A program made the position numbers and the translations under genes. The notes under the pieces are model-generated. The model ran no database searches. It was not told the DNA's origin and saw only the letters and a program-made list of their open reading frames with translations. Positions 3,064 to 59,743 of a DNA stretch of 64,000 bases are shown here, in pieces. Origin of the DNA: Pseudonocardia thermophila (lineage in GTDB: Bacteria > Actinomycetota > Actinomycetes > Mycobacteriales > Pseudonocardiaceae); assembly GCF_900142365.1 (NCBI RefSeq), contig NZ_FRAP01000009.1, positions 1 through 64,000 on the forward strand. Direction: 5' to 3'. Positions within the stretch are counted from its first letter, which is position 1; each line of letters starts with the position of its first letter.

Positions 3064-3125
3064 GTCGAGAACGACGATGCTGCGGACTGAATCGATTCGA
3101 TTTTCGCCACAACGTCGTTCTCGGC
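3064..3125. repeat. Dispersed palindromic repeat, copy 1
   Basis: About 62 bp with left arm GTCGAGAACGA (3064-3074) and right arm TCGTTCTCGGC (3115-3125). The core GGACTGAATCGAT is shared almost exactly with copy 4 at 38119. This is the only copy of six not between convergent genes: it follows the ATPase remnant and precedes the phosphatase at 3199. If the remnant was once a plus-strand gene, the copy would sit at its 3' end. Confidence 0.85.
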
Positions 3126-3198
3126 GCAGCGGGTGGACCCCGGCAGTGACCGGGGCCACCCCGCCACGGCCGGATGCACCGCGTCCGGACGGCCTACG

Positions 3199-3663
3199 GT
3201 GGCCGACGTGCATGTCGTGTTCGTCTGTTCCGGCAACATCTGCCGCTCCCCCATGGCCGAGAAGGTGTTCGCCGCGGCGCTGGAGGAGGCCGGGCTGGCC
3301 GAGAAGGTGCGGGTGACGAGCGCCGGCACCGGCGCCTGGCACGTCGGGGAGCCCATGGACGAGCGGGCCGCCGCCATCCTCGCTGCGGAGGGCTACCCCA
3401 CCGACCACGTCGCCCAGCAGGTCGACGCCGAGGCGCTGGGAGCCGACCTGATCGTCGCCCTCGACAACGGGCACCGCCGCGCGCTGCAGCAGCGGGTCCC
3501 CGAGCCGGAGCGGGTGCGGCTGCTGCGCTCGTTCGAGCCCGGGCAGAACGACGGGGACGTGCCGGACCCGTACTACGGCGGCCCGGACGGGTTCGCCGAC
3601 GTCCTGGCGATGATCAAGGCCGCGGTGCCCGGCCTGCTCGAGCACGTGCGCTCGCAGGTGTGA
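3199..3663 (+). CDS. Low-molecular-weight protein tyrosine phosphatase
   Basis: A cytoplasmic phosphatase of 154 residues. The P-loop CSGNICRSP near the N-terminus (Cys10 and Arg16 with the GTG start at 3199) is the CX5R(S/T) signature, and VPDPYYGG near the C-terminus supplies the general-acid Asp. The length is normal for the family. A second GTG at 3208 gives MHVVFVCSGN and is equally plausible. There is no strong ribosome site; TACGGT just upstream could be a -10 box for a short leader. The stop is followed 2 nt later by the fructosamine kinase, a frequent actinobacterial pair, so the two are probably cotranscribed. Substrates unknown; no cognate tyrosine kinase is nearby. Confidence 0.92.
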   Translation: MADVHVVFVCSGNICRSPMAEKVFAAALEEAGLAEKVRVTSAGTGAWHVGEPMDERAAAILAAEGYPTDHVAQQVDAEALGADLIVALDNGHRRALQQRVPEPERVRLLRSFEPGQNDGDVPDPYYGGPDGFADVLAMIKAAVPGLLEHVRSQV

Positions 3664-3665
3664 CG

Positions 3666-4415
3666 ATGTCCGCCGACCGCGTGGTCGTGAAGCACGGGGA
3701 CGTGCGCGCCGAGGCAGCCGGCCTGGCGTGGCTGGTCGTCCCCGGCGGGCCACCGGTGGTGCCGGTCCTCGAGGTGCATCCCGACCGGCTGGTGCTGGCC
3801 CGGCTCGACGAGGTCGGCGCCGATCCCGCCGCTGCCGAGCGCTTCGGCCGCCAGCTGGCCTACCTGCACGCCGCCGGGGCCCCGGCGTTCGGCGCTCCCC
3901 CGCCGGGCGGGCCGGCGGAGGCGACGATCGGGCGCGCCCCGATGCGCAACGAACCAGCCCCCGCGTGGCCGCAGTGGTACGTGCGCGACCGGGTGCTGCC
4001 CTACCTGCGCGCCGCCCGTGACGCCGGCAGCATCGGCGCGGCTGACACCGCGGCCGTCGAGCAGGTGTGCGAGCGCATCGCCGAGCTCGCCGGCCCGCCC
4101 GAACCGCCCGCCCGACTGCACGGCGATCTCTGGTCGGGCAACGTCCTGTGGACCGCGGAGGGCGGCACGCTGATCGACCCGGCCGCGCACGGCGGCCACC
4201 GGGAGACCGATCTCGCGATGCTCGCCCTGTTCGGTTTCCCCTACCTCGACGCGGTGCTGCGCGCCTACCACGAGACGACCCCGCTCGCCGACGGCTGGCG
4301 CGAGCGGGTGCCGCTGCACCAGCTCTTCCCGCTGCTGGTGCACGCCGTGCTGTTCGGCGCCGGGTACGGCCGGCAGGCCGGCGCGGCCGCCCGGACGGTG
4401 CTCGCAACGGCCTGA
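3666..4415 (+). CDS. Fructosamine/ketosamine kinase family protein
   Basis: 249 residues with the aminoglycoside-phosphotransferase fold of the fructosamine-3-kinase family (PF03881). The catalytic loop LHGDLWSGNVLW (about 151-162) and the following IDPAAHGGHRETD (170-182, metal-binding Asp) are diagnostic. These kinases phosphorylate sugars attached to protein amines so that the adduct falls off, a protein-repair role. The N-terminal nucleotide lobe is shorter than in eukaryotic members, as usual in actinobacteria. It starts with ATG 2 nt after the phosphatase stop. It ends 18 nt before palindromic repeat copy 2, which separates it from the convergent acyltransferase gene. Confidence 0.88.
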   Translation: MSADRVVVKHGDVRAEAAGLAWLVVPGGPPVVPVLEVHPDRLVLARLDEVGADPAAAERFGRQLAYLHAAGAPAFGAPPPGGPAEATIGRAPMRNEPAPAWPQWYVRDRVLPYLRAARDAGSIGAADTAAVEQVCERIAELAGPPEPPARLHGDLWSGNVLWTAEGGTLIDPAAHGGHRETDLAMLALFGFPYLDAVLRAYHETTPLADGWRERVPLHQLFPLLVHAVLFGAGYGRQAGAAARTVLATA

Positions 4416-4433
4416 CCGGACCGACCAGGCTGC

Positions 4434-4494
4434 GTCGAGAACGACGTTGGCGCGATCTCGAAACGATTCAACCCGTCACAACCTCGTTCTCGAC
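4434..4494. repeat. Dispersed palindromic repeat, copy 2 (convergent junction)
   Basis: 61 bp with arms GTCGAGAACGA (4434-4444) and TCGTTCTCGAC (4484-4494), flanked by GC / GCGG. It lies between the stop of the fructosamine kinase (+, 4415) and the stop of the acyltransferase (-, 4521). The arms extend inward with a few mismatches (ACGTTG against CAACCT), so a stem of about 20 bp is possible on either strand. It may serve as a bidirectional terminator. Confidence 0.88.
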
Positions 4495-4520
4495 GCGGCG
4501 GGGCGCACCCGGCCGAACCG

Positions 4521-5939
4521 TCAGTCGGAGCGCTCCACCAGCTCGGCCAGCGACTCCGCGAGGTCGTCGGCGACCTCGTCGACGTCGGGCATCGCGTCGC
4601 GGTCGGCGGTGAGCCCGTAGTGCACGTGCCCGTCGTAGGAGGTGATCCCGACGGCCACCGCCTGCCGGCCGCCCAGCGGCACCACCGGGTACATCTCCAG
4701 CATCCGCGCGCCCATGGCGTAGAGCGGGCGGGGCGGTCCGGGCACGTTGGTGACCAGGACGTTGTAGAAGTTGTCCGAGTACCGGCTAGCCATGCGCACG
4801 CCGAGGCTGTGCAGCACCGGCGGGGCGAGCCCGACCAGCCCCATCAGCGTCGCCGCGCCGACCGCCTGCCCGCCGCGCTTGTGCTCCTCCATCGCGGCGC
4901 TGAGGATCCCCAGGCGCTCGACCGGGTCGGTCACCGCGACCGGGAGATCGACGAGGTAGGCGGAGATGCTGTTGCCCGCCGGCCCGATCGTGCCGGTCTC
5001 GCGGGCCCGGGCCCGCACGCTCACCGGCACCATGGCGCGCACCTGCGTCGATTCGGTCAGCGGTTCCCCGCGCCGGATCAAGAGCCGGCGCAGTCCGCCG
5101 GTGACGACGGCGAGGATGACGTCGTTGACGGTGCCGCCGTGCGCCTTGCGCACCTTCCGGTGATCGGCGAGCGTCGTGCGCAGGGTGCCGTAGCGGCGCT
5201 GCTGGCCGGTGGCGGCGTTGAGCGCACCGACGGGCCGGGCGGACGCTGCACGCCGGCCGGTGGACAGGACGCCCCCGACCGTGCGGGCCACCGAGTCCGC
5301 GGTGGACCGGGCGTCGGTGACGACCCGCGCGGCCGCCTCACCGGCCCGTTCGATCGCGCTCCACGGCCGCCGCAGCAGGTCGACGGCGGCCCCGGCGGCG
5401 AGCGCCAGCGCGCTCGGCTCCGGCTCCGGGCGCCACGGCGGGGCCGGGGTGGGCCGGGGCGCCGGGGTCAGGTCGAGCAGCGCCGCGCCGATGTCCATCG
5501 ACGCGAGGCCGTCGACCATCGCGTGGTGGGTCTTGGTGACCACGGCGAACCGGCCGCCGGTCAGCCCCTCGACGATGTTGACCTCCCACAGCGGGCGGCT
5601 GCGGTCGAGGTGGCGCACCAGCAGCCTGCCGACCAGTTCCCGCAGCACCGCGTCGGTGCCCGGCGCGGGCAGCGCCGAGTGCCGCACGTGGTAGTGGATG
5701 TCGAAGTCGGGATCATCGACCCACACCGGCAGCCCGAGCCCGCCAGGCACCATGCGCACCTTCTGCCGGTACCGCGGTACCAGGTGCAGCCGCTGCTCGA
5801 TCAAGTCGGTGAACGCACCGACGTCGAACGGCCCGCCGGCGGGCTGCTCGAACGTCATCACACCGCCGATGTGCATGGCGGTCGTGCGGTCCTCGGCGAA
5901 CAAGAACGAGGCGTCGAGGGGCGAGAGCCGGTCGGGCAC
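4521..5939 (-). CDS. Wax ester synthase/diacylglycerol acyltransferase (WS/DGAT)
   Basis: 472 residues. The HHxxxDG acyltransferase site is HHAMVDG at about 138-144, preceded by the family motif PLWE (about 116-119); NDVILA occurs in the C-terminal half. The protein has normal length for bacterial WS/DGATs, which move acyl groups from acyl-CoA to diacylglycerol or long-chain alcohol at the membrane or lipid-body surface. The GTG at 5939 is chosen because GGAGGAGG lies 8-10 nt upstream and VPDRLSPLDASFL matches the family N-terminus. It follows the methyltransferase gene by 17 nt, so it is the last gene of the 10-methyl fatty acid operon. That suggests branched acyl chains may be channelled to storage lipid (inference). 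Confidence 0.93.
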   Translation of the reverse strand: MPDRLSPLDASFLFAEDRTTAMHIGGVMTFEQPAGGPFDVGAFTDLIEQRLHLVPRYRQKVRMVPGGLGLPVWVDDPDFDIHYHVRHSALPAPGTDAVLRELVGRLLVRHLDRSRPLWEVNIVEGLTGGRFAVVTKTHHAMVDGLASMDIGAALLDLTPAPRPTPAPPWRPEPEPSALALAAGAAVDLLRRPWSAIERAGEAAARVVTDARSTADSVARTVGGVLSTGRRAASARPVGALNAATGQQRRYGTLRTTLADHRKVRKAHGGTVNDVILAVVTGGLRRLLIRRGEPLTESTQVRAMVPVSVRARARETGTIGPAGNSISAYLVDLPVAVTDPVERLGILSAAMEEHKRGGQAVGAATLMGLVGLAPPVLHSLGVRMASRYSDNFYNVLVTNVPGPPRPLYAMGARMLEMYPVVPLGGRQAVAVGITSYDGHVHYGLTADRDAMPDVDEVADDLAESLAELVERSD

Positions 5940-5956
5940 TCGAGAGATCCTCCTCC

Positions 5957-7186
5957 TCACCACCCCCGCAGGGGGAACCCGGACCCGCCCTGCGCCGCGA
6001 GCTTCACCCCGAGCACCTGGTGGAGCTGGATGTTGTCGCGCTCGAACCCGACCCGCGACGCGGCCATGTACAGCCGCCACACCTTCGCCCGGCCCAGCCC
6101 GACCTCGGCCACGGCCTCGTCCCAGTGCTCCTCGAGGTTCTCGCACCAGGCCTTGAGGGTCAGCGCGTAGTGCTCGCGCAGGTTCTCCTCGTGGCGGATC
6201 TCGAAGCCGGCGTCGTTCATCTCGCTGATGAGCAGGCCGATCGGCTCCAGCTGACCGTCCGGGAACACGTAGCGTCCGATGAACGGGTCGACCTTCTTCC
6301 GCCGCGGCGTGCGGGGCTGGGTGATGCAGTGGTTGAGCAGCCGCCCGCCCGGTCGCAGCCGCGCGTGCAGCGACGAGAAGTACCGGCTGAGCTGGTCGCG
6401 GCCGATGTGCTCGGTCAGGCCGATGGAGCTGATCGCGTCGAACTGCGATTCGGGGGTCTGCCGGTAGTCGAGGTGGCGCACCTCGGCGAGCTTCGACAGC
6501 CCCAGCTCCTCGATCTTCTGCTGCGCCCAGTCGGCCTGGTTCTTCGACAGGGTCACGCCCAGCGCCTTCACGCCGTGCTCCTTGGCGGCGTGCATGACCA
6601 TCCCGCCCCAGCCGCAGCCGACGTCGAGCAACCGCATCCCGGACTTCAGCCCGAGCTTCTGCACGACCAGCTCGTGCTTGGCCGCCTGCGCCTCCTCCAG
6701 CGTCGCGTCCGCGGTCGGGAACACCGCGCACGTGTAGGTCATCGACGGGCCGAGGACCCACTCGTAGAACCGGTTGGAGACGTCGTAGTGATGGGAGATG
6801 GCCCGGTGATCGCGCCGCAGCGAGTGCAACCGCCCCTTGGGCCGGTACTCCAGGTCGGGGATCGGGCGGCGGTGCTTGGCCCAGATCGGCAGCATCTTGC
6901 GCGCCAGATCGATCTGCTGGGCACGGGTCAGCCCGTTGATCGTCAGGTCGGCCATCGCGTCGAGCAGCTGGTACATCTCGCCGTCGACCTCGATCTCGCC
7001 GGAGACGTACGCGCGGGCGAGGCCGAGCGTGGCCGGTGCCGTGGCGAGCCGGGCGAGCGCGCTCGGGCTGATGACCCGCAGGGTGACCTCGGAGCTGTCG
7101 GGGCCGACCTTGCTGCCGTCGTAGGCGACGACCCGCACCGGCAGGTCCGGTCCGATGACATCGGAGATGATGTCGGCGACCAGCAT
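5957..7186 (-). CDS. tmsB: SAM-dependent fatty acyl-phospholipid methyltransferase, TmsB/Cfa type
   Basis: 409 residues of the cyclopropane-fatty-acyl-phospholipid synthase family. An N-terminal region (1-120) precedes SHHYDVSN (131-138), the acyl/bicarbonate site region MTYTCAVF (149-156) and the SAM loop LLDVGCGWGG (186-195); TEHIG lies further on. The gene directly follows an FAD-linked oxidoreductase (5-nt gap), the arrangement of tmsA-tmsB: there TmsB methylates an oleoyl chain to 10-methylene and TmsA reduces it to 10-methylstearate (tuberculostearic acid). A cyclopropane synthase reading is possible from the sequence alone; the partner argues for TmsB. ATG at 7186 with AGGAGGT about 10 nt upstream. 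Confidence 0.88.
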   Translation of the reverse strand: MLVADIISDVIGPDLPVRVVAYDGSKVGPDSSEVTLRVISPSALARLATAPATLGLARAYVSGEIEVDGEMYQLLDAMADLTINGLTRAQQIDLARKMLPIWAKHRRPIPDLEYRPKGRLHSLRRDHRAISHHYDVSNRFYEWVLGPSMTYTCAVFPTADATLEEAQAAKHELVVQKLGLKSGMRLLDVGCGWGGMVMHAAKEHGVKALGVTLSKNQADWAQQKIEELGLSKLAEVRHLDYRQTPESQFDAISSIGLTEHIGRDQLSRYFSSLHARLRPGGRLLNHCITQPRTPRRKKVDPFIGRYVFPDGQLEPIGLLISEMNDAGFEIRHEENLREHYALTLKAWCENLEEHWDEAVAEVGLGRAKVWRLYMAASRVGFERDNIQLHQVLGVKLAAQGGSGFPLRGW

Positions 7187-7191
7187 CGTCA

Positions 7192-22168: not shown

Positions 22169-22245
22169 CGGCGCCCACACCCCCGGTGCGCGAAGCTTGG
22201 GTGCGGCAGGGACCCCCTTGCGCGGACGGGTACGTGGAGGAGCAG

Positions 22246-23826
22246 GTGAGGCAACGGCCGCCCGCTTTGCGCGGTACGCTGGTCGGGCTCGTCACGCTGC
22301 TCGCCGCGGCGCTGGTCGCGGCGTGCACCGTGGGCCCTTCGGTCCGGCCACCGGTGGCCGTGCGCGGCGACGAGCGGATCGCGCCGGGCCCGCCCGCGCC
22401 GGGCCCACCGACCGGATCCGCGCCGCTGCCCAGCCCCGCGCCCGGGACGTCGACGATCGACTTCGTCGACTGCACCGACGAGCTGCAGCTGACCCTGCGC
22501 GACCCGCTACCGGCGGACCGCGGGCTGCGCATCGACTGCGGCATGATCGAGGTGCCGATCGACCCGGACGCCCCGTTGTCGATCACGCAGCTGCAGGTGC
22601 TGCGCATCGGCACCGGCCGGCCCGGGACGAAGCCGCCGCTGGCCGTCGTCGGGGACTCGGCGGCCGAGCCGACCGCGCGGTTCGCGGCGATCCTCGCCGG
22701 GCAGGTGCCCGTGGAGCTGCTGGAGGCGTACGACCTGGTCGGGATCGACCGGCGCGGCGCAGGCTACGACAACCTCGACTGCGCCCCGGACACCACGCGC
22801 GCCGCACTCGTGGACGCGTCGCCGACCGCGGTGGATGAGGCGAGCCTGGACCGGTTGCTCGAGCGGGCCCGCGACCTCGTGCAGCAGTGCACGATCGACG
22901 TCGACAGCGGGCTGGCGAGCTATCGGTCGGCGTCCACGGGCTCCGACCTGGAGGAGCTGCGGCACGGGCTCGGGGTCCGGCAGCTGTCGGCGATCGGGGT
23001 GGGCGACGGGGCCGCCGCCGTCCTGGAGTGGGCCCGTTCCGCGCCCGCGCACGTCGGCCGGGTGGTGCTCGACGGACCACCGCAGCCCGGACTGGACGAC
23101 CCGGACCTCACCGACTCCCGTGCCCGGGCCACCGAGGCCGCGTTCGACGCGTTCGCGACCGCGTGCACGGGCGGCGCGGACTGCCCGCTCGGCCCCGATC
23201 CGCGGACTCGGGTCACCGCGCTGATGCAGCGGCTGGACGCCCGCCCGCTGGCTTCCCCCATCGGTGACCGGCTCACCGCGGGCACCGCCCTGTACGCGCT
23301 GCGCACCGCGCTGGTGGAGCCGCGGAACTGGCCGGACCTGGCGTCGGCGCTCGCCGCCGCCGATGCAGGCGATCCGGTGCCGCTGCTGGCGACGCTCGAC
23401 CGGGCCCTCGGCCCTCGCGGCACGTTCGACGGAACCCTGGCCACGGCCTGCAACGACACCCAGCGCCGGCTCGCGCCCGCGCAGGCCGCCGAGTTCGCCG
23501 CGCGGATGCGGCAGGCTCACCCGCTGTTCGGCGGGGCGATGGCGCTGCAGGTCGTGCTGTGCGCGCCGTGGCCGACCGGCCGGCCGATGGGCCCCGGTAT
23601 CCCGGCCGGGACGCCGCCGATGCTCGTCATCGGCACCGCGGCGGACCCGCGCAGCACCCTCGAGGGCGCCCGCCACCTCGCCCAGCAGCTGCCGGGCGGG
23701 GTGTTCGTGAGCTGGCAGGGGGCGGGGACGGGGGCGTTCCCGCGCACGGCCTGCGTCTCGGACGTGGTGACGGGAATGCTCGTGAACGGCCTGCTGCCCC
23801 CGGACGGGACGCTCTGCCCGCCGTGA
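22246..23826 (+). CDS. TAP-like alpha/beta-hydrolase lipoprotein lacking catalytic residues
   Basis: 526 residues, exported lipoprotein: hydrophobic signal 9-26 ending in the lipobox LVAAC (Cys27). The body follows the tripeptidyl-aminopeptidase/S33 family: YDLVGIDRRGAGYDNLDC (162-179), a nucleophile-elbow region 249-280, APWPTGRP, and the C-terminal PPDGTLCP. The elbow reads GVGDG (251-255), where the family has GxSxG, so the Ser is missing. The acid Asp is kept (TAADP, Asp467), but the His loop reads QGAGTG (491-496) instead of GHG. It is therefore probably a pseudoenzyme, perhaps a binding protein. The GTG at 22246 follows GGAGGAG. It begins 78 nt after the Asp23 operon. Downstream lies palindrome copy 3. 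Confidence 0.8.
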   Translation: MRQRPPALRGTLVGLVTLLAAALVAACTVGPSVRPPVAVRGDERIAPGPPAPGPPTGSAPLPSPAPGTSTIDFVDCTDELQLTLRDPLPADRGLRIDCGMIEVPIDPDAPLSITQLQVLRIGTGRPGTKPPLAVVGDSAAEPTARFAAILAGQVPVELLEAYDLVGIDRRGAGYDNLDCAPDTTRAALVDASPTAVDEASLDRLLERARDLVQQCTIDVDSGLASYRSASTGSDLEELRHGLGVRQLSAIGVGDGAAAVLEWARSAPAHVGRVVLDGPPQPGLDDPDLTDSRARATEAAFDAFATACTGGADCPLGPDPRTRVTALMQRLDARPLASPIGDRLTAGTALYALRTALVEPRNWPDLASALAAADAGDPVPLLATLDRALGPRGTFDGTLATACNDTQRRLAPAQAAEFAARMRQAHPLFGGAMALQVVLCAPWPTGRPMGPGIPAGTPPMLVIGTAADPRSTLEGARHLAQQLPGGVFVSWQGAGTGAFPRTACVSDVVTGMLVNGLLPPDGTLCPP

Positions 23827-23851
23827 GGTGGATCGGCCCCGGCCCCGTCAC

Positions 23852-23911
23852 GTCGAGAACGAAGCTGTGGTGATCAAAGAGCCGATTCGATCACCACAAC
23901 TTCGTTCTCGA
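23852..23911. repeat. Dispersed palindromic repeat, copy 3 (convergent junction)
   Basis: 60 bp with arms GTCGAGAACGAAG / CTTCGTTCTCGAT, extended by CTGTGGTGATC against GATCACCACAA, giving about 24 paired positions. It lies 26 bp after the hydrolase stop (+) and 12 bp before the stop of the DUF732 gene (-). The two bases after GAGAACGA differ from copies 1 and 4, yet both arms changed together (AAG with CTT), which is the covariation expected of a selected stem. Confidence 0.9.
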
Positions 23912-23922
23912 TGAGGTCTCCC

Positions 23923-25650
23923 TCAGCAGAGGTGCTTCTCGACCAGGTCCACGAAGACCGGCGCCTGCTTGCGGGCGACCGTGGGCAGCTGGGTGGGCAC
24001 GGACTTGGCCACGGTCGTCTTGGCCACGCCCTCCTCGAGCTTCTTGCAGATCTCGACGGCGGCCTGGGTCTCAGACACTCCCGACCGGCTGGTGGTGATG
24101 CCCTCCTTGCGCAGGGCCTCGAGGAAGGCGACCGCCTTCGGGCTGCTCGGGTCGGCCGGGGCGGGGTCCGCGGCAGCGGGCGCCGCCGGAGCCGGGGGCG
24201 CCGCCGGAGCGCCGGCCGCGGCGGCCGGGGTCTGGGTACCGCCCCCGCCGCCGAGCACCACGATCAGGGCCGCGACGAGCCCGATGATCAGGAGCACCCC
24301 GCCGATCGCGTAGACGACGGGCTTACCCAGCCAGGACGACTCCTCCTCGCCCTCCTCGTCGTCGTCCCGGCTGACGATGGCGTGGCGCGGACCGTCGCTC
24401 TCCCGGGCGGAGCTGCGCTCCGCGGCGTCGTCACGGGACCGGTCACGGGCACCGTCGTCGAACTCGTCGGAGCCCGTGCGCGCCATCCCGGTGACCACCT
24501 GGGTGGCGTCCTCCGGCGCGCGGGCGGCGGGCTGCTGGCCGGCGGCCCGCAGCTCCGTGACGTCGATCGCGTCGGTGACCGGGTCCCTCGACGCCTCGTG
24601 GGCCACCGCTGCCGCGGCCTCCTGCGCCCGCCGGCGCGCTGCCCGGCCCTCGCGGGTGGGCGGGACCACCGCGGTGACCTCGGCCGCCGCTTCCGGCTCG
24701 ACCGCACCGTCGTCGTCGCGGCGGTGCCGGCGGCCACCGCTGCGCAGCGCCGCCATGACCGTGGTGTCGTCCCGCTCGGCCGAGTGGGTCGGCCACGCGG
24801 GCTGCGGCTGCTCCCCCAGCGGGTGGTACTCGATGTGGTGCTCGGCGGGCCGCCCCTCGGCCGCTGCGGCGTCGGCGCCGCGCCCGTCACCCGGGAGCCC
24901 CTTCCCCGTGGGCCCCGAGTGTCCGTTCGCGTAACCGTTCGCAGCGCCGTTTCCAGCGCCGTTTCCAGTGCCGGTTCCAGTGCCGTTGATCGCACCGTGC
25001 GCCGCGCCGATGGCGCCGCCGTTCGCGGCGGGACCGTCGGCGGGCCGCAGCGGCGGCGGTGGCACCGACCGGTGGACGGCGTGTGCCCTGGCCTCCGCCT
25101 CTGCGGCGGCGGCTGCCTCCTCGGCGGCCCGGGCAGCGGCATCGGCCGCGGCCTCGGCCTCCTCGGCCGCCCGCGCGGCGGCCTTGATGGCCGCGGCGGC
25201 CCGGCTCGCGGCGTCCGCGGCGGCCGCTTCCGCGGCATCGGCCGCGGCCTGCGCGGCGAGCCGGCGGCGGGTGTACCAGTCGAGATCGATCGGGCCGGGA
25301 CTGAAGCCGGGCCCGGCTGAGGTGTGGCCGGGCGGCGGGCCGCCGTCGGGCCGGATGTCGTGGTGGCTCTCGGGACGGCCGGTGGCCGGGCCACCGTCGA
25401 AACCGCTCTCGAGGTCGTCGCCGAGACCGTGGTTGTGACCGGTGTCGGGACCGTTGCCGACTGCGCCGACTCCCTCGTCGACGCCGTGGTCGACCCTGTG
25501 GCCGACGCTGTGGTCGACGCTGCCGGCGACGTCGTCGTCGACGGCGGCGTCGTGGCCGATGGACACGTCCGGACGCTCCTCCGTGATGACCGGTTCAGAG
25601 GAGGGTGTACCGCGTACGGCGCGCCGACCGCTGAGCTGTTCGTCGTCCAT
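23923..25650 (-). CDS. Large single-pass membrane protein with C-terminal DUF732-like domain
   Basis: 575 residues. Residues 1-120 are acidic and His/Gly-rich and look disordered. Residues 128-200 are a long Ala/Glu helix, probably coiled coil (AAADAAEAAAADAASRAAAA). Residues 200-440 are low-complexity and charged. One membrane helix lies at about 445-466 (VVYAIGGVLLIIGLVAALIV), then an Ala/Pro linker. The final 70 residues (AVAFLEALRKEGI to KHLC) form a small helical domain with two Cys, like the DUF732 domains secreted by mycobacteria. Topology would be a large cytoplasmic part and an external DUF732. Function unknown. ATG at 25650 preceded by GGGGGGAA. Confidence 0.75.
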   Translation of the reverse strand: MDDEQLSGRRAVRGTPSSEPVITEERPDVSIGHDAAVDDDVAGSVDHSVGHRVDHGVDEGVGAVGNGPDTGHNHGLGDDLESGFDGGPATGRPESHHDIRPDGGPPPGHTSAGPGFSPGPIDLDWYTRRRLAAQAAADAAEAAAADAASRAAAAIKAAARAAEEAEAAADAAARAAEEAAAAAEAEARAHAVHRSVPPPPLRPADGPAANGGAIGAAHGAINGTGTGTGNGAGNGAANGYANGHSGPTGKGLPGDGRGADAAAAEGRPAEHHIEYHPLGEQPQPAWPTHSAERDDTTVMAALRSGGRRHRRDDDGAVEPEAAAEVTAVVPPTREGRAARRRAQEAAAAVAHEASRDPVTDAIDVTELRAAGQQPAARAPEDATQVVTGMARTGSDEFDDGARDRSRDDAAERSSARESDGPRHAIVSRDDDEEGEEESSWLGKPVVYAIGGVLLIIGLVAALIVVLGGGGGTQTPAAAAGAPAAPPAPAAPAAADPAPADPSSPKAVAFLEALRKEGITTSRSGVSETQAAVEICKKLEEGVAKTTVAKSVPTQLPTVARKQAPVFVDLVEKHLC

Positions 25651-35845: not shown

Positions 35846-36634
35846 GTGCTCCCAGCCAGCCGGCACAGCGAGATCCTCAGGATCGTGCAGTCGTCCGGCA
35901 TCGTCTCGGTGGAGACGCTCGCCTGCGGGCTGAACGTGAGCCCGTCCACGATCCGCCGCGACCTGCAGGCCCTCGAGGCCAGCGGCGCCCTGCGCCGGGT
36001 GCACGGCGGGGCGCTGCCCTGCCCCCGGCCGTCCGGCGACGGTGACCACGCGGTCGGCCACCCGGCTGGCACGGTGTCCGTCGCGGACGCCGCGGCGGAG
36101 GCGAAGGAGCGGATCGCGCGCTGCGCCGCCGAGCTCGTGCAGGACGGCGACGTCGTGCTGATCGACATCGGCACGACGACCGCGCGGCTGGCGGCGCGCC
36201 TGCGCGACCGGCGGGTCACCGTGATCACCTCCAGCCTCGCGGTGGTCGACGTGCTGCGCGACGCCGACGACGTCGACCTGCTCGTGCTGGGCGGGGTGCT
36301 GCGGCGCAACCACCTGTCGTTCGTCGGGAGCCTCACCGAGCAGGCGCTGCGCGAGGTGCGGGCGCGCTGGCTGTTCCTCGGGGCCAGCGGGGTGCGGCCG
36401 GACGGCACGGTGATGGACACGACGCTGGTGGAGGTGCCGGTGAAGCAGACGATGATCGCGGCGGCTGAGCGGACGGCGCTGCTCGCCGACCGCGGGAAGT
36501 TCCCCGGGACCGGGGTCTCCCCCGTCTGCGGGCCGGACGCGGTCGACGTCCTCGTGACCGACGCGGCGGACGGCGAGCCATCCGACTGCCTCGCCTCCGC
36601 GCTCGCCGCGTTCCGCTCGGTGCGGCACGCATGA
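35846..36634 (+). CDS. DeoR/GlpR-family transcriptional regulator
   Basis: About 262 residues. The HTH (RHSEILRIVQSSGIVSVETL, then NVSPSTIRRDLQALEASGAL, then RRVHGG) is at 5-60, and the sugar-phosphate-sensing DeoRC domain carries IDIGTTTARLAARL, ITSSLAVVDVL, LGGVLRRNHLSFVG and the C-terminal DRGKFPGTGVSPVC. The GTG at 35846 is preferred because the family starts just before RHSEIL and a possible -10 (TACGGT) lies 6 nt upstream; an ATG at 35828 adds six residues. The ligand is likely a phosphosugar made by the linked genes. Its stop overlaps the GH4 start by 4 nt (ATGA), so it is coupled to the glycosidase gene. Confidence 0.92.
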   Translation: MLPASRHSEILRIVQSSGIVSVETLACGLNVSPSTIRRDLQALEASGALRRVHGGALPCPRPSGDGDHAVGHPAGTVSVADAAAEAKERIARCAAELVQDGDVVLIDIGTTTARLAARLRDRRVTVITSSLAVVDVLRDADDVDLLVLGGVLRRNHLSFVGSLTEQALREVRARWLFLGASGVRPDGTVMDTTLVEVPVKQTMIAAAERTALLADRGKFPGTGVSPVCGPDAVDVLVTDAADGEPSDCLASALAAFRSVRHA

Positions 36635-37953
36635 AGCTCACGATCCTGGGCGGCGGCGGGTTCCGGGTACCGCTCGTGCACGGGGCGCTGACCGCCGACT
36701 GCGGGGTGTCGGAAGTCGTGCTGCACGACGTCGACGCGCGGCGGCTCGCCGCCATCGGCGCGGTGCTCGCCGGGCGGCCGGGCCCGCCCGTGCGGACGAC
36801 GACCGATCTCGACGACGCGCTGGCCGGCGCCCGGTTCGTCTTCTCGGCGGTGCGGGTGGACGGACTCGCCGGCCGCACGATCGACGAGCGGGTGGCGCTG
36901 GAGCTCGGCGTGCTCGGCCAGGAGACGGTCGGTCCGGGCGGGATCGCCTACGGGTTGCGGACGGTGCCGGTCGCACTGGACGTCGCGCGGCGGGTCGCGG
37001 CGCTGGCGCCCGGCGCGTGGGTCATCTCGTTCACCAACCCGGCCGGGATGATCACGGAGGCGATGCAGCGGGTGCTCGGCGACCGGGTCGTCGGGATCTG
37101 CGACTCCCCCGTCGGCCTGGCGGCGCGGGCCGCCCGCGCACTCGGGATCAGCGGCCCGGTCGTGCCCGACTACGTGGGGCTCAACCACCTCGGCTGGCTG
37201 CGCGGGCTGTCCGTCGACGGCGTCGACCGGCTGCCGGAACTGCTCGCGGACGACGCCCGCCTCACCCGGATCGAGGAGGCGCGGTTGCTCGGTCCAGCGT
37301 GGGTCCGCGCTCTCGGGGCGCTGCCCAACGAGTACCTGTACTACTTCTACCGGAACCGGGAGGCGGTGGCCGCGATCCGCTCGGCGCCGCAGACCCGCGG
37401 CGAGTACCTGTGCGAGCAGCAGGAACGGTTCTACGCCGCAGCAGCCGCCGACCCGGCCTCGGCGTGGGAGCTGTGGACGGCGACCCGCGCCGAACGGGAC
37501 GCCAGCTACATGGCGGAGAGCCGCGAAGCCGCCGGGGCCGGGGAACGCGACGCCGTCGACGTCGAGACGGGCGGGTACCAGCAAGTTGCGGTCGCGCTCA
37601 TGCGGGCCCTCTCCGGCGGCCCGCCCACCACGCTGATCCTGAACGTCCGCAACGGCTCCGCGGTGCCCGGGATGCCGCCCGAAGCGGTGGTGGAGGTGCC
37701 CTGCCTCGTCGGGCCGCACGGCGTCACCCCCCTGGCCACCCGCCCGCTCCCGTTGGGGATGCTCGGGCTGATGCAGCAGGTGAAGGCTGTCGAGCAGGAC
37801 ACGATCGAGGCCGCGGTGACCGGCTCGGCCGACCTGGCCCTGCGCGCGTTCGCCGGCCACCCGCTCGTCGACTCGGTGGGAGTGGCGGAGCAGCTGCTGG
37901 CGGAGTACCGGACGCAGTTGCCCGGGGTGGCGGCGGTGCTGGGTGCAGCGTGA
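36631..37953 (+). CDS. Glycoside hydrolase family 4 (6-phospho-beta-glucosidase type)
   Basis: 440 residues. GH4 enzymes cleave glycosides using NAD+ and Mn2+. The Rossmann loop is LGGGGFRVPLV at 5-15, followed by the metal-binding CDSPVG and NHLGWLRGL, and GICDSP. VISFTNPAGMI and GLNHLGW are standard motifs. The QETVGPGGIAYGLRTVP segment fits 6-phospho-beta-glucosidases rather than 6-phospho-alpha members. Such enzymes normally follow a PTS transporter, and none is here, so the phosphorylation may come from the divergent PfkB kinase. Length and Cys/His residues are normal. Confidence 0.88.
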   Translation: MKLTILGGGGFRVPLVHGALTADCGVSEVVLHDVDARRLAAIGAVLAGRPGPPVRTTTDLDDALAGARFVFSAVRVDGLAGRTIDERVALELGVLGQETVGPGGIAYGLRTVPVALDVARRVAALAPGAWVISFTNPAGMITEAMQRVLGDRVVGICDSPVGLAARAARALGISGPVVPDYVGLNHLGWLRGLSVDGVDRLPELLADDARLTRIEEARLLGPAWVRALGALPNEYLYYFYRNREAVAAIRSAPQTRGEYLCEQQERFYAAAAADPASAWELWTATRAERDASYMAESREAAGAGERDAVDVETGGYQQVAVALMRALSGGPPTTLILNVRNGSAVPGMPPEAVVEVPCLVGPHGVTPLATRPLPLGMLGLMQQVKAVEQDTIEAAVTGSADLALRAFAGHPLVDSVGVAEQLLAEYRTQLPGVAAVLGAA

Positions 37954-38118: not shown

Positions 38119-38179
38119 GTCGAGAACGAGGTTGTGATGGACTGAATCGATCCGAAATCGCCACAACCTCGTTCTCGAC
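38119..38179. repeat. Dispersed palindromic repeat, copy 4 (convergent junction)
   Basis: 61 bp with arms GTCGAGAACGAGGTTGTG and CACAACCTCGTTCTCGAC, 18 bp perfectly paired, the best stem of the family. The loop contains GGACTGAATCGATCCGA, nearly as in copy 1. It lies between the GH4 gene (+) and the P450 gene (-), 42 bp after the 21-bp array. Confidence 0.92.
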
Positions 38180-41024: not shown

Positions 41025-41444
41025 ATGGACACCGAACCTGCCGCGAAGGTCGTCAAGACCGAGGAGGAGTGGCGGGCCCAGCTGACCCCCGCCGAGTACG
41101 AGGTGCTGCGCCGGGCCGGCACCGAGCGCCCGTTCACCGGCGAGTACGTCGACACCAAGACCGAGGGGATCTACACCTGCCGGGCCTGCGGAGCCGAGCT
41201 GTTCCGCAGCGACGCGAAGTTCGACTCCCACTGCGGCTGGCCGTCGTTCTTCACCCCGCTGGCCGGGGACGCGGTGATCGAACGGCCCGACTACAGCCTG
41301 GGCATGAAGCGCACCGAGGTCATCTGCGCGGCCTGCCACAGCCACCTCGGGCACGTCTTCGAGGGCGAGGGCTACCCCACCCCCACCGACCTGCGGTACT
41401 GCATCAACTCGATCTCGCTGCGGCTGGTGCCGAAGGAGGGCTGA
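41025..41444 (+). CDS. msrB: Peptide-methionine (R)-S-oxide reductase MsrB
   Basis: 139 residues. It reduces the R-epimer of methionine sulfoxide in proteins. The zinc-binding Cys pairs are CRACGAEL and CAACHSHLGH, and the catalytic Cys lies in YCINSISL. DSHCGWPSF carries the conserved Trp/Pro. The length is normal for single-domain MsrB, and ATG at 41025 fits the family start. MsrA is not adjacent. Confidence 0.95.
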   Translation: MDTEPAAKVVKTEEEWRAQLTPAEYEVLRRAGTERPFTGEYVDTKTEGIYTCRACGAELFRSDAKFDSHCGWPSFFTPLAGDAVIERPDYSLGMKRTEVICAACHSHLGHVFEGEGYPTPTDLRYCINSISLRLVPKEG

Positions 41445-41900
41445 CCAGCTCGGCCGCGCACGGCGGGCCCGGTGCTCGAGCCAGGCGGGCATCCGCCGTG
41501 AGCAGCGTGGCGCCCAGGCGCTCCGCCAGAGCCGAGCACCCGGCGACGTGGTGGCTGAGCTCGTGGCGCAGCTCCCCGGCGCCTGCGCGAGCGCAGTGCG
41601 GCTGCTGCGCTGGTCGACCGGACGCCGAGGAGGCGCAGCGCTCCGGCGGCGCGAAGCTCCGGCACCCTGCCGGCAGCGGCGCGACGGCGCAGATCGACCT
41701 CGACCTCGATGAGGTCCGGTGCGGGATGGCCGCGCGAAACCCGGCGAGCAGCGCAGGTGCGTCGGGCTCGGTCGGCGCCTCCACCGCCGCAGCCGGATCG
41801 GCGCCGATCCGCGCTGCTGCGCAGCTCGACGTCGCCGCGACTGGTGCCGGAGGAGCTGGGCGCCGAGCGTCGAGGACGACCCGCGTGATCACGACACCCT
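41427..41900 (-). pseudogene. Decayed VapC-type PIN-domain toxin gene
   Basis: On the reverse strand, pieces of a PIN domain appear in different frames: VITRVVLDA at the start, PDLIEVEVDLRRR in another frame (the LIExEVxSALRR helix), then ELRHELSHHVAGCSALAERL, LGATLLTADARLARAPG and the final PPCAAELV. The pattern ELRHNLTxxDAxYVALAExL, LLTxDxRLARAPG is the classic VapC C-terminus. Conserved Asp positions (DACYVALA) are replaced by VAGCSALA. Two or more frameshifts are needed, and no antitoxin remains. It overlaps msrB's 3' end by a few bases. Dead gene. Confidence 0.55.
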
Positions 41901-41927
41901 GTTGATCACGGCAACGTCGTTCTCGAC
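41885..41927. repeat. Dispersed palindromic repeat, copy 5 (partial, convergent junction)
   Basis: The right half is well kept: GATCACGGCAACGTCGTTCTCGAC-type text (41904-41927). The left arm GTCGAGAACGA is lost, replaced by the decayed start of the VapC-like gene. It lies 9 bp before the hemQ stop. A partial copy at a convergent junction fits decay of a full palindrome. Confidence 0.65.
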
Positions 41928-41935: not shown

Positions 41936-42631
41936 TCACGGAAGCGTCGCCACCAGCGCCCCGGGCTCGACCCGCGGCCCGGTGAAGAACGGGATCTCGT
42001 GCCGGACGTGCCGGCGCGCCTCCGTGGCCCGCAGGTCGCGCATGAGGTCGACGATGCGGTCGAGCTTGTCGGACTCGAACGCGAGGATCCACTCGTAGTC
42101 GCCGAGCGCGAACGCCGGCACGGTGTTGGCGCGCACGTCCGGGTAGCCGCGGCCCGCCTTGCCGTGCTCGACGAGCATCTGGCGCCGCTCGTCGTCCGGC
42201 AGCAGGTACCAGTCGTAGGAGCGCACGAACGGGTAGACGCAGACGTAGCCCTTCGGTTCCTCGCCCGCCAGGAACGCTGGGATGTGGCTCTTGTTGAACT
42301 CCGCGGGCCGGTGCAGCGCCGCCGCGCTCCACACGGCCTCGCTCGCGCGGCCGAGCGCGGTGGTGCGGCGCAGATCGGAGTACGCGGCCTGCAGCGCCTC
42401 GATGTTGTCGGCGTGCCACCAGATCATGTAGTCGGCGTCGGCCCGCATGCCGGCGACGTCGTAGACGCCGCGGACGACCACGCCCTTGCCGGCCAGGGCG
42501 TCGAGGAAGGCGGAGAACTCGGCGGCGGTGTCGGCGCGGTCCTCCCCCAGTACCCCGGGCCGGGCCCGGAACACCGACCACATGGCGTACCGGATCGTGC
42601 TGTTGAGCTGGTCGTAGTCGAGGCGGGCCAT
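41936..42631 (-). CDS. hemQ: Coproheme decarboxylase HemQ (chlorite dismutase family)
   Basis: 231 residues. HemQ of actinobacteria and firmicutes converts Fe-coproporphyrin III to haem b with peroxide. Markers: [36 protein letters not shown] and the proximal-His region [35 protein letters not shown] is typical of the actinobacterial clade. The chlorite-dismutase distal Arg is not expected in HemQ. ATG at 42631 gives [16 protein letters not shown]. Other hem genes are not nearby. Confidence 0.95.
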
Positions 42632-54552: not shown

Positions 54553-54584
54553 ACCGAACGCGCACCTCGCCGCTTGCGACGCAG

Positions 54585-54730: not shown

Positions 54731-54757
54731 GGCGCACGGCGCGCCCGGCCGCGGCCG

Positions 54758-56323: not shown

Positions 56324-56341
56324 CCCGAACGAATGGTCGGT
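56324..56341. promoter_or_regulatory. PaaR-type box upstream of paaZ
   Basis: CCCGAACGAATGGTCGGT. In the opposite reading of the paaA box (ACCGAACGAACATTCGGT) it matches 14 of 18 positions. It lies 21 bp before the paaZ TTG start, in the divergent gap with the FAD oxidase gene. Together with the two other boxes it suggests one regulon. Confidence 0.6.
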
Positions 56342-56361
56342 CGAGCCATTGGAGGCCCACC

Positions 56362-58353
56362 TTGTCCGCAGCGTTGCGCAGCTACGTCACCGGGGCGTGG
56401 CACACCCCCACCGACGAAGGCCGCCCGCTCCACGACGCGACCACCGGCGAGGAGATCGCCCACATCTCCTCGGCGGGCATCGACTTCGCCGCGATGCTCG
56501 ACTACGGCCGCCGGGTCGGCGGACCGGCGCTGCGCGCGCTCACCTTCCACCAGCGTGCAGCGCTGCTGAAGCAGCTCGCCGGCTACCTCAAAGAGCGCCG
56601 GGGAGAGCTCTACGCGGTGTCCGCCCACACCGGCGCCACCGAGAACGACTCCCGGTTCGACGTCGACGGCGGCATCGGCGTGCTGTACGCCTACGCCTCG
56701 CTGGGCCGCCGCGAGCTGCCCAACGACACCGTCTACGTCGAGGGCCCGGTGGTGCCGGCGGGGCGCGGCGGCACGTTCGTCGCCCAGCACGTCGCCACCC
56801 CCCTGCGCGGGGTCGCGGTGCAGGTCAACGCGTTCAACTTCCCTGTGTGGGGGCCGCTGGAGAAGTTCGCCCCCGCGTTCCTCGCCGGGATGCCGAGCGT
56901 CGTCAAGCCCGCCAGCCCCACCGCGTACCTGACCGCGAAGCTCACCGAGCTGATCGTCGAATCGGGGATCCTGCCGGAGGGCGCATGGCAGTTCGTCGCC
57001 GGTTCGCTCGGCGACGCGTTCGACCACTTGACCGGTCAAGACCTCGTCGCGTTCACCGGCTCGGCGGCGACCGCAGCCACCCTGCGGGCGCATCCGGTGA
57101 TCGTCCGCAACGCCGTGCGGTTCTCCGCGGAGGCCGACTCGCTGAACTTCTCCGCGCTCGGTCCCGACGCCGGCCCCGGCACGCCCGAGTTCGATCTCTA
57201 CGTCGGCCAGCTGGTGACCGAGATGACGGTGAAGGCCGGGCAGAAGTGCACCGCGATCCGCCGGGCGTTCGTGCCGGAGCAGTGGGTCGACGCGGTCGTC
57301 GAGGCCGCGGCGGCGAAGCTGGCCGAGACCCCCATCGGGGCGCTGGCGAGTCTGGAGCAGCGCGAGGAGGTGCGGCGCAGCATCAAGGCGCTCGCCGCCG
57401 CCGGTCGCATCGCCTACGAGGGCACCGCACCCGACGGTCCGGGCGCGTACCAGGCGCCGGTGCTGCTGGTCGGCGACCCGGAACGGGCCGAGCCGCACGA
57501 GGTGGAGGCGTTCGGACCGGTCTCGACGGTCCTGCCGTACACCGCGACCGAGCAGCTGATCGACTACGCCGCCCGCGGCCGGGGCAGCCTCGCCGGCTCG
57601 GTCGTCACCGGCGACCGCGCGTTCGCCCGCGAAGTCGTGCTGGGTGTGGCGCCGTACCACGGCCGGGTGCTGGTGCTCACCCAGGCCGACGCGCAGGAGT
57701 CCACCGGGCACGGCGCTCCCCTGCCCCAGCTGGTGCACGGCGGCCCGGGCCGCGCGGGCGGCGGCGAGGAGCTGGGCGGCCTGCGCGGGGTCCTGCACCA
57801 CATGCAGCGCACCGCGGTGCAGGCCGACCCCGATACGCTCACCGCGATCACCGGGCGCTGGGTGCCGGGCTCGGCACGCACCGTCACCGACGTCCACCCG
57901 TTCCGCAAGGACCTCAGCGAGCTCAAGATCGGCGACACGATCGTCGCCGGGCCGCGCGTCGTCACCCAGGAGGACGTCGAGCACTTCGCCGAGTTCACCG
58001 GCGACACGTTCTACGCCCACATGGACGCCGAGGCCGCGGCGAAGAACCCGCTGTTCGGCGAGCGGGTCGCGCACGGCTACCTGGTCGTCTCGCTGGCCGC
58101 GGGCCTGTTCGTCGACCCTGACCCGGGCCCGGTGCTGGCCAACTTCGGCGTGGACGACCTGCGCTTCCTCTCGCCCGTGAAGTTCGGGGACGCGCTGACG
58201 GTCACGCTCACCTGCAAGCAGATCACCCCGCGCGACACCGCCGACTACGGCGAGGTCCGCTGGGACGCCGACGTCACCCGCCAGGACGGCACGTCGGTCG
58301 CCCGCTACGACGTGCTGACGCTGGTCGCGAAGAAGAAGGGAGCCCAGCAGTGA
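56362..58353 (+). CDS. paaZ: Oxepin-CoA hydrolase/3-oxo-5,6-dehydrosuberyl-CoA semialdehyde dehydrogenase PaaZ
   Basis: 663 residues, TTG at 56362 with GGAGG 8-10 nt before it. An aldehyde dehydrogenase part (1-510) has FNFPVWGPLEKFAPAF, SGSxxxx-like FTGSAATAATL and the catalytic Cys in KAGQKCTAIRR. A MaoC-type hydratase part (about 540-663) has EHFAEFTGDTFYAHMD (Asp/His pair) and AHGYLVVSLAAGLF. PaaZ opens the oxepin ring and oxidises the aldehyde formed. The stop overlaps the paaK GTG by 4 nt. Confidence 0.95.
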   Translation: MSAALRSYVTGAWHTPTDEGRPLHDATTGEEIAHISSAGIDFAAMLDYGRRVGGPALRALTFHQRAALLKQLAGYLKERRGELYAVSAHTGATENDSRFDVDGGIGVLYAYASLGRRELPNDTVYVEGPVVPAGRGGTFVAQHVATPLRGVAVQVNAFNFPVWGPLEKFAPAFLAGMPSVVKPASPTAYLTAKLTELIVESGILPEGAWQFVAGSLGDAFDHLTGQDLVAFTGSAATAATLRAHPVIVRNAVRFSAEADSLNFSALGPDAGPGTPEFDLYVGQLVTEMTVKAGQKCTAIRRAFVPEQWVDAVVEAAAAKLAETPIGALASLEQREEVRRSIKALAAAGRIAYEGTAPDGPGAYQAPVLLVGDPERAEPHEVEAFGPVSTVLPYTATEQLIDYAARGRGSLAGSVVTGDRAFAREVVLGVAPYHGRVLVLTQADAQESTGHGAPLPQLVHGGPGRAGGGEELGGLRGVLHHMQRTAVQADPDTLTAITGRWVPGSARTVTDVHPFRKDLSELKIGDTIVAGPRVVTQEDVEHFAEFTGDTFYAHMDAEAAAKNPLFGERVAHGYLVVSLAAGLFVDPDPGPVLANFGVDDLRFLSPVKFGDALTVTLTCKQITPRDTADYGEVRWDADVTRQDGTSVARYDVLTLVAKKKGAQQ

Positions 58354-59663
58354 CGCGACTCGGGGAGCCGCCCGCACCGGACACCCTTGACCCGGCCGAG
58401 CGCATGTCGGTCGACGAGCTGCGCGCGCTGCAGCTTCAGCGGCTGCAGTGGACGTTGCGGCACGCCTACGAGAACGTTCCGCACTACCGGAAGGCGTTCG
58501 ACACCGCCGGCGTCCATCCCGACGACTGCCGCGAGCTCTCCGACCTCGCGAAGTTCCCCACCACGACGAAGGCCGATCTGCGGGACAACTACCCGTTCGG
58601 CCTGTTCGCGGTGCCGCGGGAGCAGGTGCGGCGCGTGCACGCCTCGTCGGGGACGACGGGGCGGCCGACCGTCGTCGGCTACACGGAGAGCGACATCGCC
58701 AACTGGGCCGGGCTGATGGCCCGGTCGCTGCGCGCCGCCGGGGTGCGGCCGGGGCACATCGTGCACAACGCCTACGGGTACGGGCTGTTCACCGGTGGGC
58801 TCGGCGCGCACTACGGCATCGAGGCGCTCGGGGCGACGACCGTGCCGATCTCGGGCGGTATGACCCCGCGGCAGGTGCAGCTGATCCGCGACTTCGCCCC
58901 GGACGCGATCCTGTGCACGCCCACGTACATGCTGACGATCCTGGACGAGCTGGAGCACCAGGGCGTCGATCCGCGCTCGACGTCGCTGAAGGTCGGGGTG
59001 TTCGGCGCGGAGCCGTGGACCGAGGAGATGCGCCGCGAGATCGAGGAGCGCACCGGCATGCACGCCGTCGACATCTACGGGCTGTCGGAGGTGATGGGGC
59101 CGGGTGTGTCGCAGGAGTGCGTCGAGACGAAGGACGGGCTGCACATCTGGGAGGACCACTTCTACCCGGAGGTCGTCGACCCCGAGACCGGCGAGCCCGT
59201 GCCGGACGGCGAGGAGGGCGAGCTGCTGTTCACCTCGCTGACCAAGGAGGCGCTGCCGATCATCCGGTACCGCACGCGCGACCTCACCCGGCTCCTGCCG
59301 GGCACCGCGCGCCCGGCGATGCGGCGGATGCAGAAGGTCACCGGCCGCAGCGACGACATGATCATCCTGCGCGGGGTGAACCTCTTCCCCACCCAGATCG
59401 AGGAGATCGTGCTGCGGACCGCGGGGCTCTCCCCGCACTTCCAGCTCGTCCGGCACAAGGAGGGGCGGCTCGACGCGCTCACCGTGCGGGTGGAGGCCCG
59501 CCCGGACGCGCCCGCCGAGCGCCGCGCGGCCGCGGCCGCGGAGGTCGTCGAGGCGGTGAAGCAGACGATCGGGGTGACGGTCGGGTGCGAGATCGTCGAC
59601 CCGGACACCCTGGAGCGCTCCGTCGGCAAGCTCCAGCGGGTGAAGGACCTGCGGGACGCCTGA
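58350..59663 (+). CDS. paaK: Phenylacetate-CoA ligase PaaK
   Basis: 437 residues, GTG at 58350. Adenylate-forming fold: HASSGTTGRPTVVGYT (ATP loop), YGLSEVMGPGVSQEC, RTRDLTRLLPG and the C-terminal lysine region GRSDDMIILRGVNLFPTQIE. It activates phenylacetate with CoA and ATP, the entry step. Cotranscribed with paaZ. The gene ends 19 bp before palindrome copy 6. Confidence 0.96.
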   Translation: MTRLGEPPAPDTLDPAERMSVDELRALQLQRLQWTLRHAYENVPHYRKAFDTAGVHPDDCRELSDLAKFPTTTKADLRDNYPFGLFAVPREQVRRVHASSGTTGRPTVVGYTESDIANWAGLMARSLRAAGVRPGHIVHNAYGYGLFTGGLGAHYGIEALGATTVPISGGMTPRQVQLIRDFAPDAILCTPTYMLTILDELEHQGVDPRSTSLKVGVFGAEPWTEEMRREIEERTGMHAVDIYGLSEVMGPGVSQECVETKDGLHIWEDHFYPEVVDPETGEPVPDGEEGELLFTSLTKEALPIIRYRTRDLTRLLPGTARPAMRRMQKVTGRSDDMIILRGVNLFPTQIEEIVLRTAGLSPHFQLVRHKEGRLDALTVRVEARPDAPAERRAAAAAEVVEAVKQTIGVTVGCEIVDPDTLERSVGKLQRVKDLRDA

Positions 59664-59682
59664 ACCCCGAAGCCCGCACCGC

Positions 59683-59743
59683 GTCGAGAACGAACCTGTG
59701 GTGATCAAGAGGGCTTTTCGATCACCACGACTTCGTTCTCGAC
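59683..59743. repeat. Dispersed palindromic repeat, copy 6 (convergent junction)
   Basis: 61 bp, arms GTCGAGAACGA / TCGTTCTCGAC, inner pairing TGTGGTGATC / GATCACCAC. It follows the paaK stop by 19 bp and precedes the small minus-strand gene's stop by 11 bp. The core AAGAGGGCTTTTCG differs from copies 1 and 4 and is closest to copy 3. Confidence 0.9.

Follow-up and report, generated by a model that had tools for sequence, protein, structure and literature searches.

We analyzed a window of 64,000 nucleotides from Pseudonocardia thermophila (contig NZ_FRAP01000009.1; the whole genome, 6.1 Mb in 47 contigs, is labeled G000 below), in which a palindrome of typically 61 bp recurs six times, chiefly at the ends of genes. 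The six copies, recognized in a preliminary description of the window, are real: they score 47-81 bits with a covariance model, as against 13.9 bits for the next match in the window, with five of them being rows of that model and copy 5 not being one. The 11-bp outer arm, with at most one mismatch, occurs 22 times in the window as against 1.9 +/- 1.4 times in shuffled sequences, none of the 100 shuffles reaching the observed number. All six copies are predicted to fold into very stable hairpins, with energies between -34 and -46 kcal/mol and z values between -5.4 and -9.0. They and their neighboring genes are as follows (fold energies in kcal/mol; ORF, open reading frame):

Copy 1, 3064..3125: 62 bp, TCGA-type interior, one right-arm mismatch, 49.5 bits; fold -34.5, z -5.6; a non-convergent site between two + strand genes, with a low-molecular-weight phosphatase gene 73 bp downstream
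Copy 2, 4434..4494: between a fructosamine-kinase-like gene (3660-4415, + strand) and a WS/DGAT gene (4521-5939, - strand); fold -34.3, z -5.4
Copy 3, 23852..23912: GATC-type interior; between a TAP-like hydrolase gene (22234-23826, + strand) and a DUF732 gene (23923-25566, - strand); fold -40.1, z -7.9
Copy 4, 38119..38179: TCGA-type interior; between a GH4 gene (36631-37953, + strand) and a P450 gene (38259-39437, - strand); fold -36.5, z -5.9
Copy 5, 41869..41927: 59 bp, GATC-type interior, left arm GTCGAGGACGA; 424 bp past a SelR-domain gene (41025-41444, + strand) and 8 bp past the stop of a chlorite-dismutase-family (hemQ-like) gene (41936-42631, - strand); fold -37.8, z -6.2
Copy 6, 59683..59743: GATC-type interior; between an AMP-ligase gene (58404-59663, + strand) and a 74-aa ORF (59755-59979, - strand) with no Pfam match; fold -46.5, z -9.0

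Genes were called with our own simple codon-usage gene finder, not a standard annotator, which designates 88% of the window as coding and by which copies 2-6 occupy convergent gaps of 105, 96, 305, 491 and 91 bp. The preliminary description had placed five of the six copies between convergent genes in gaps of 80-500 bp, and copies 2-6 bear this out (91-491 bp), with copy 1 lying outside the pattern. Copy 5, which it had regarded as a partial element at 41885, is in fact complete. That it could name no family with these arms agrees with our searches, as no Rfam match above the gathering threshold was obtained in the window and no published description of these arms was found in the open-licence literature.

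Genomic repertoire, anatomy and placement

In G000 we read the window and 62 further stretches (608,661 bases, i.e., 0.61 Mb of the 6.1 Mb), which contain 80 distinct copies when up to three arm mismatches are tolerated. Across the genome, a pair of exact arms separated by 30-50 bases occurs 45 times and a reversed control pattern not at all. The covariance model, built from 47 rows, returned at least 150 hits counting both strands; two significant copies found in flanks lie outside its hit list (L119:5278, and L161:3242 with four arm mismatches). We estimate that the genome holds perhaps around 100 copies in total.

The length of the element is uniform: 61 bp in 71 of the 80 copies in G000 (range 59-63), and, among loci picked via exact arms with 36-44 bases allowed between them, in 69 of 69 copies of P. 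lacus and 21 of 23 of P. humida. Positions 1-11 of each half-site are near-invariant in G000 (92-100% identity to the half-site consensus), positions 12-15 are variable, positions 16-24 form an inner stem of a few types, and positions 25-37 are loop-like; the palindrome further continues outward for a few bases in G000, approximately as CCGC...GCGG. The interior varies with the lineage: G000 has GATC and TCGA types and P. lacus GATC and GGACCGGTCC types, whereas the GGACCGGTCC type predominates in P. humida and a TTAGCGCTAA-like type in Pseudonocardia sp. TRM90224 (G045). No linkage between the center and the outer positions emerged from a half-element shuffling test. Unaccompanied arms are rare, with only nine exact ones outside called copies in the loci scanned (those of G000, P. 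lacus and P. humida plus three more from Pseudonocardia), seven of these being remnants or variants of the element and one lying in the window (45220). Three shortened elements lack part of the center (L048:45, L086:3687 and L095:1190), a kind of loss to which an unstable palindrome might be prone.

Among 62 genomes of the genus, the exact arms are found in five, with 45, 3, 62, 168 and 2 copies, the 168 being those of P. lacus (G022); with stricter filters (E <= 1e-6), the covariance model matches seven and leaves 55 without a match. Carriers are scattered patchily over a hemQ tree of 29 genomes (six changes, with 229 of 500 label shuffles as low). A scan for the arm pattern across genome contigs returned at least 102 stretches. 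Among the matches listed, nine loci of Promicromonospora/Cellulosimicrobium combine the same outer arms, in elements of 59-60 bp, with a different inner stem; four of these are convergent, two lie 26 and 30 nt past a stop, one has a gene on one side only and two overlap ORFs. The arm matches in Streptomyces (2), Trueperaceae, Myxococcales, Hyphomicrobiales and Labilithrix were taken to be chance occurrences, as all six overlap called ORFs.

The 80 copies in G000 comprise 33 in convergent gaps, 31 in tandem gaps (28 nearer the upstream stop), nine in divergent gaps and seven overlapping a called ORF; the corresponding figures are 30, 23, 6 and 5 for the 69 copies of P. lacus, with 5 more at locus edges, and 11, 9, 2 and 0 for the 23 copies of P. 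humida, with 1 at a locus edge. Of the intergenic gaps of at least 60 bp in the stretches read for the three genomes, a copy occupies 76 of the 120 that are convergent, 62 of the 312 that are tandem and 16 of the 199 that are divergent; the stretches were selected for having copies, which inflates these fractions in every class, and the contrast between the classes is what counts. The possibility raised in the preliminary description that copies might be random with respect to gene orientation is thereby set aside. Tandem copies are nearer the upstream stop in 55 of 63 cases, at medians of 19, 9 and 29 nt past the stop in the three genomes.

Furthermore, the element is scarce in the tight gaps typical of operons. 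Only five of 62 copy-bearing tandem junctions would measure less than 40 bp without the copy, as against 317 of 621 copy-free junctions (p 5e-12, the three genomes pooled), and the contrast holds in each genome taken singly (G000, 1 of 29 versus 182 of 309, p 1e-9; P. lacus, p 0.009; P. humida, p 0.02). Convergent junctions exhibit no such bias, 52 of 84 with a copy, its length discounted, and 94 of 146 without one falling below 40 bp. Such avoidance of the inside of operons is in keeping with an element that halts transcription, but lost translational coupling could explain it too.

Stem pairing and turnover between sister species

The 24-pair stem covaries in part: in alignment A1 its score is 0.149 as against 0.098 +/- 0.007 in shuffles, with none of 500 as high, and two-sided changes number 48 as against 23.9 +/- 3.8, it being borne in mind that the shuffles ignore relatedness and that the two interior types drive part of the signal. 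Among the 48 GATC-type copies of G000, covariation is seen at pairs 12, 17 and 18 and is absent at pairs 13-15, with pair 14 falling below expectation; among 42 GATC-type copies of P. lacus, it is seen at pairs 12 and 13. The arm of G045 bears a compensated change on both sides at once, with GTCGACAACGA/TCGTTGTCGAC in all nine best-scoring loci read and the usual arms in two further copies.

A comparison of P. lacus with P. humida suggests that the element is gained and lost as a unit at individual junctions. Where both species have a copy at the same junction the arms agree, and the interior type differs in three of ten clear pairs (L029/L049, L026/L090 and L056/L297); these ten omit the ambiguous L051/L112, and L112:799, a member of another pair, has decayed arms. 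We sought in P. humida the first 18 of 32 suitable P. lacus junctions, excluding nine loci already matched to copy-bearing loci, and located all 18: three share the element, three are without it, five have another inverted repeat and seven are not comparable. As known shared loci had been excluded, three of 18 is too low a figure. On the assumption that the remaining 14 junctions follow the same pattern and that eight or nine of those excluded are common to both species, a rough estimate would be that P. humida shares about a third of the P. lacus sites.

Of the three junctions lacking the element in P. humida, L045/L311 displays an exact 61-bp gap between TCCC and GGGG; at L016/L313 and L024/L302 the element is missing and the gaps are shorter, with the site too diverged for its ends to be defined. 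The five with another inverted repeat include four with TCCTCGCAG- or TCCTCACAG-type arms (L298, L299, L308 and L310) and one with a TCAGGAAGGTGGCCTTCCTGA palindrome (L309), all at places where P. lacus has the 61-bp element, and TCCTCGCAG recurs as an inverted arm at four places within the 18 P. humida loci. The seven rearranged or non-comparable junctions include L304, which retains a remnant of the right arm. In G000, a copy occurs at the same junction as in P. lacus or P. humida in two places (L171 with L026 and L090; L174 with L079).

One 61-bp element is situated in frame within cobN (L130:2499-2559; Pfam CobN-Mg_chel, 1330.9 bits). About 23 residues are missing at this place in three of five homologues, namely the solved CobN chain 7c6o_A and the proteins of Streptantibioticus and Tsukamurella. 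This copy is best read as an insertion into a length-variable segment.

Interpretation and competing explanations

Taken together, we consider it moderately probable that the 61-bp palindrome is a non-autonomous dispersed element, akin to the repetitive extragenic palindromes (REPs), that colonizes gene ends and probably serves there as a bidirectional U-tract-less terminator and/or a stabilizer of the 3' end. In the mechanism we propose, the two near-invariant 11-bp outer arms would define the element, and a lineage-specific inner stem and loop would fill it; some machinery would add, remove or overwrite it as a unit of fixed length; and copies would survive mainly directly past stop codons. 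Once transcribed, the hairpin would probably block read-through from both sides in the manner of an I-shaped, i.e., U-tract-less, terminator, and/or might shield the 3' end of the mRNA from exonucleases. Its spread as a unit is fairly well supported; the terminating or stabilizing effect, a mobilizing enzyme and the direction (gain or loss) of each change we infer. The preliminary description had likewise suggested a bidirectional terminator or mRNA-end element, and the preference for convergent gaps, the proximity of tandem copies to the upstream stop and the covariation of the stem favor it; that only 33 of 80 copies are convergent, and that G-U pairs are not in excess, do not.

The latter point belongs to a set of observations that weigh against our proposal or against parts of the preliminary description. 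When 57 tandem 61-bp copies are oriented along the upstream gene, their stems show 59 G-U and 57 A-C pairs (p 0.93), which argues against selection on an RNA stem, as this predicts an excess of G-U; at stem positions 12 and 16-24 alone the numbers are 24 and 18. The loop shows no covariation. The compensated bases past the common arm that the preliminary description had noticed in copies 3 and 4 stand at position 12, where copy 3 has A-T and copy 4 has G-C. Positions 13-15 in G000 pair no better than in shuffles (45 rows of 61 nt out of 47, two 60-nt rows being left out and the row of copy 1 being one base out of register). No T-run terminator was found on either strand around copies 3 (22500-25000) and 6 (58000-61000), the two of the six that were scanned, and the T-run is likewise absent from the flank table of 71 copies in G000. 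Nine of the 80 copies in G000 stand in divergent gaps. No single copy looks essential, given how many P. lacus sites have no counterpart in P. humida.

With regard to mobility, the one exact gap, L045/L311, shows no target duplication, and two of the five cobN homologues, that of Nonomuraea and chain 9uk9_A, hold unrelated residues at the place of the insert, implying that the segment is variable in length anyway. The Y1 transposase domain PF01797 occurs in five of the 62 Pseudonocardia genomes, including the carriers G007 (P. asaccharolytica) and G018 (P. humida) and the non-carriers G004, G041 and G043, but was found neither in G000 nor in P. lacus, the genome richest in exact copies; a link to such REP-associated tyrosine transposases (Y1/RAYT) was therefore dropped for G000. 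Judged by gene position, at neighboring pairs and unpaired arms in the loci, no autonomous partner was observed between neighboring copies.

The closest parallel among known systems is provided by the REPs of the GTAG and CGTC superfamilies. In the survey by Di Nocera et al. (2013, PMC3733652), these are defined as stem-loops with an unpaired GTAG or CGTC tag at one end and described as short dispersed palindromes that prefer convergent and unidirectional gaps, lie near 3' ends (most convergent ones within 20 bp), form several families per genome and include some intragenic copies. Apart from the tag, these traits recur here, but REPs measure 20-40 bp as against 61 bp, and in place of a tag unpaired at one end our element has conserved, paired outer arms at both ends. 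It also lacks an unpaired CCA tail. CGTC is present yet paired, base -1 being C in 69 of 71 copies and base +1 being G in 67 of 71. Because the unpaired tag and, in G000, the Y1 transposase are wanting, we do not file the palindrome as a REP, even as it behaves like one.

As for terminators, the intrinsic (L-shaped) kind has a GC-rich stem followed by a U-run, which is absent here. The I-shaped terminators of high-GC bacteria do without it, and hairpin 3' ends lacking a U-tract ('HS-U-lack') are a described class in Streptomyces clavuligerus (PMC8269248), which resembles our element in being a stable hairpin with no U-tract, the stem being stable in all six window copies; that class takes its definition from structure and a mapped 3' end, whereas our element is defined by a sequence recurring at 80 sites. 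In Neisseria and Pasteurellaceae, paired DNA uptake sequences are reported to terminate transcription between tail-to-tail genes (Kingsford et al. 2007, PMC1852404) and similarly place a short conserved arm in inverted pairs that are enriched tail-to-tail, but in their case very many single copies exist besides, and single arms are rare here. Integron attC sites were rejected as a candidate: their core sites read RYYYAAC and GTTRRRY, and the right arm here reads GTTCTCG, with pyrimidines where purines are required.

The alternative that best survives, though we deem it rather unlikely, is a purely selfish element with no host function, either a REP or a miniature inverted-repeat transposable element (MITE), whose location at gene ends would merely reflect the removal of insertions elsewhere. 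MITEs are distinguished by terminal inverted repeats, the absence of coding capacity and presence/absence variation, all of which apply here; our element differs in being almost fully palindromic, in that the one exact gap shows no target duplication, and in that no transposase with matching ends was found in the search of neighboring copies. The exact gap and the in-frame copy in cobN are also what a selfish element would produce. REPs of other bacteria are placed alike at gene ends (PMC3733652), so that placement alone cannot prove a terminator, and stem-loops in many bacteria generally favor convergent gaps and the first 50 bp past stops (PMC1590033). What speaks against mere parasitism is the partial covariation of the stem and the occupation of five of the 18 P. 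humida junctions by other inverted repeats, which suggests a need for a hairpin at the slot itself.

We regard as unlikely the explanation that these are plain intrinsic bidirectional terminators evolved in place without any mobility, the arms being kept because RNA polymerase or a termination factor needs their sequence. Stable folds, placement past stops and in convergent gaps, and scarcity in tight tandem gaps would all follow from it, as would the two junctions at which G000 shares a copy with P. lacus or P. humida, and the recurrence of the same outer arms with another inner stem at gene ends of Promicromonospora/Cellulosimicrobium. Ordinary terminators, however, have neither an 11-bp arm nor a fixed length in common across 80 sites; nor does this explanation readily accommodate the in-frame cobN copy, the differences in presence between sister species, the 55 genomes of the genus with no model match or the missing U-tract.

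Less likely still is that the palindrome functions as a double-stranded DNA site, its arms, about 50 bp apart, binding a symmetric protein at gene ends; binding of proteins such as a nucleoid protein or gyrase has been proposed for REP sites and for bacterial interspersed mosaic elements (BIMEs). Near-invariant arms, a fixed length, the lack of asymmetry between G-U and A-C, the simultaneous change of both arms in G045, and the preference for convergent ends, where supercoils would meet, are compatible with it, but the pairing and covariation of the inner stem at 12, 17 and 18 in G000 would be needless if the site were read through its arms only, and no binding protein came to light, though none was specifically sought.

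Other palindromes and minor features

A blind scan of the G000 stretches for repeated inverted arms uncovered a second family, CGAACGGCACT...AGTGCCGTTCG, usually 45 bp long, with 62 exact copies in G000. It is represented in 32 of the genus's 62 genomes, most abundantly in G021 with 145 copies. Its design is that of the 61-bp family, with constant arms and species-specific cores. The stretches contain eight copies, of which the six with called genes on both sides comprise five convergent and one tandem:

Second-family copies: L126:197-237, L137:6437-6477, L145:2847-2887, L149:356-396, L149:7850-7890, L162:1504-1545, L164:6874-6915, L176:6432-6473

In equivalent scans of 400 kb from each of two genomes without the first family, G017 yielded a single candidate, CCGACGAACG, and G027 no repeated arm at all.

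These observations invite the broader, and decidedly tentative, conjecture that high-GC actinobacteria might carry mobile terminator families, i.e., fixed-length palindromes in which the arms would be the recognition ends of a recombinase and the core would be lineage-specific, such that slots at gene ends could be filled, emptied and refilled by different families, at least the 61-bp and 45-bp ones. If this were so, the terminators of a genome would in part be supplied by mobile DNA. Should the hairpins terminate transcription, they would illustrate how GC-rich genomes with few U-tracts obtain part of their terminators. The 61-bp family bears on the old question of whether REP-like palindromes are useful transcript ends or merely tolerated parasites, and it provides natural tests: junctions at which one sister species has a copy and the other has none, cores swapped within constant arms, and a compensated arm variant in another species, to which is added a second family of the same design.

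Distinct from both families is a 25-bp palindrome, GAGTAGCGCTG N3 CAGCGCTACTC, found once each in four of the 62 genomes (L252, L253, L254 and L255) and lying behind hemQ in G011, G012 and G017, the three whose hemQ junctions were read; its single copy per genome ruled it out as another repeat family. In the window, the approximately 1.5 kb preceding copy 1 (1504-3063) is without a called gene and contains two ORFs with no Pfam match, possibly representing decayed coding sequence. It is preceded in turn by an ORF (499-1503) that combines an XRE-type helix-turn-helix with a TetR domain.

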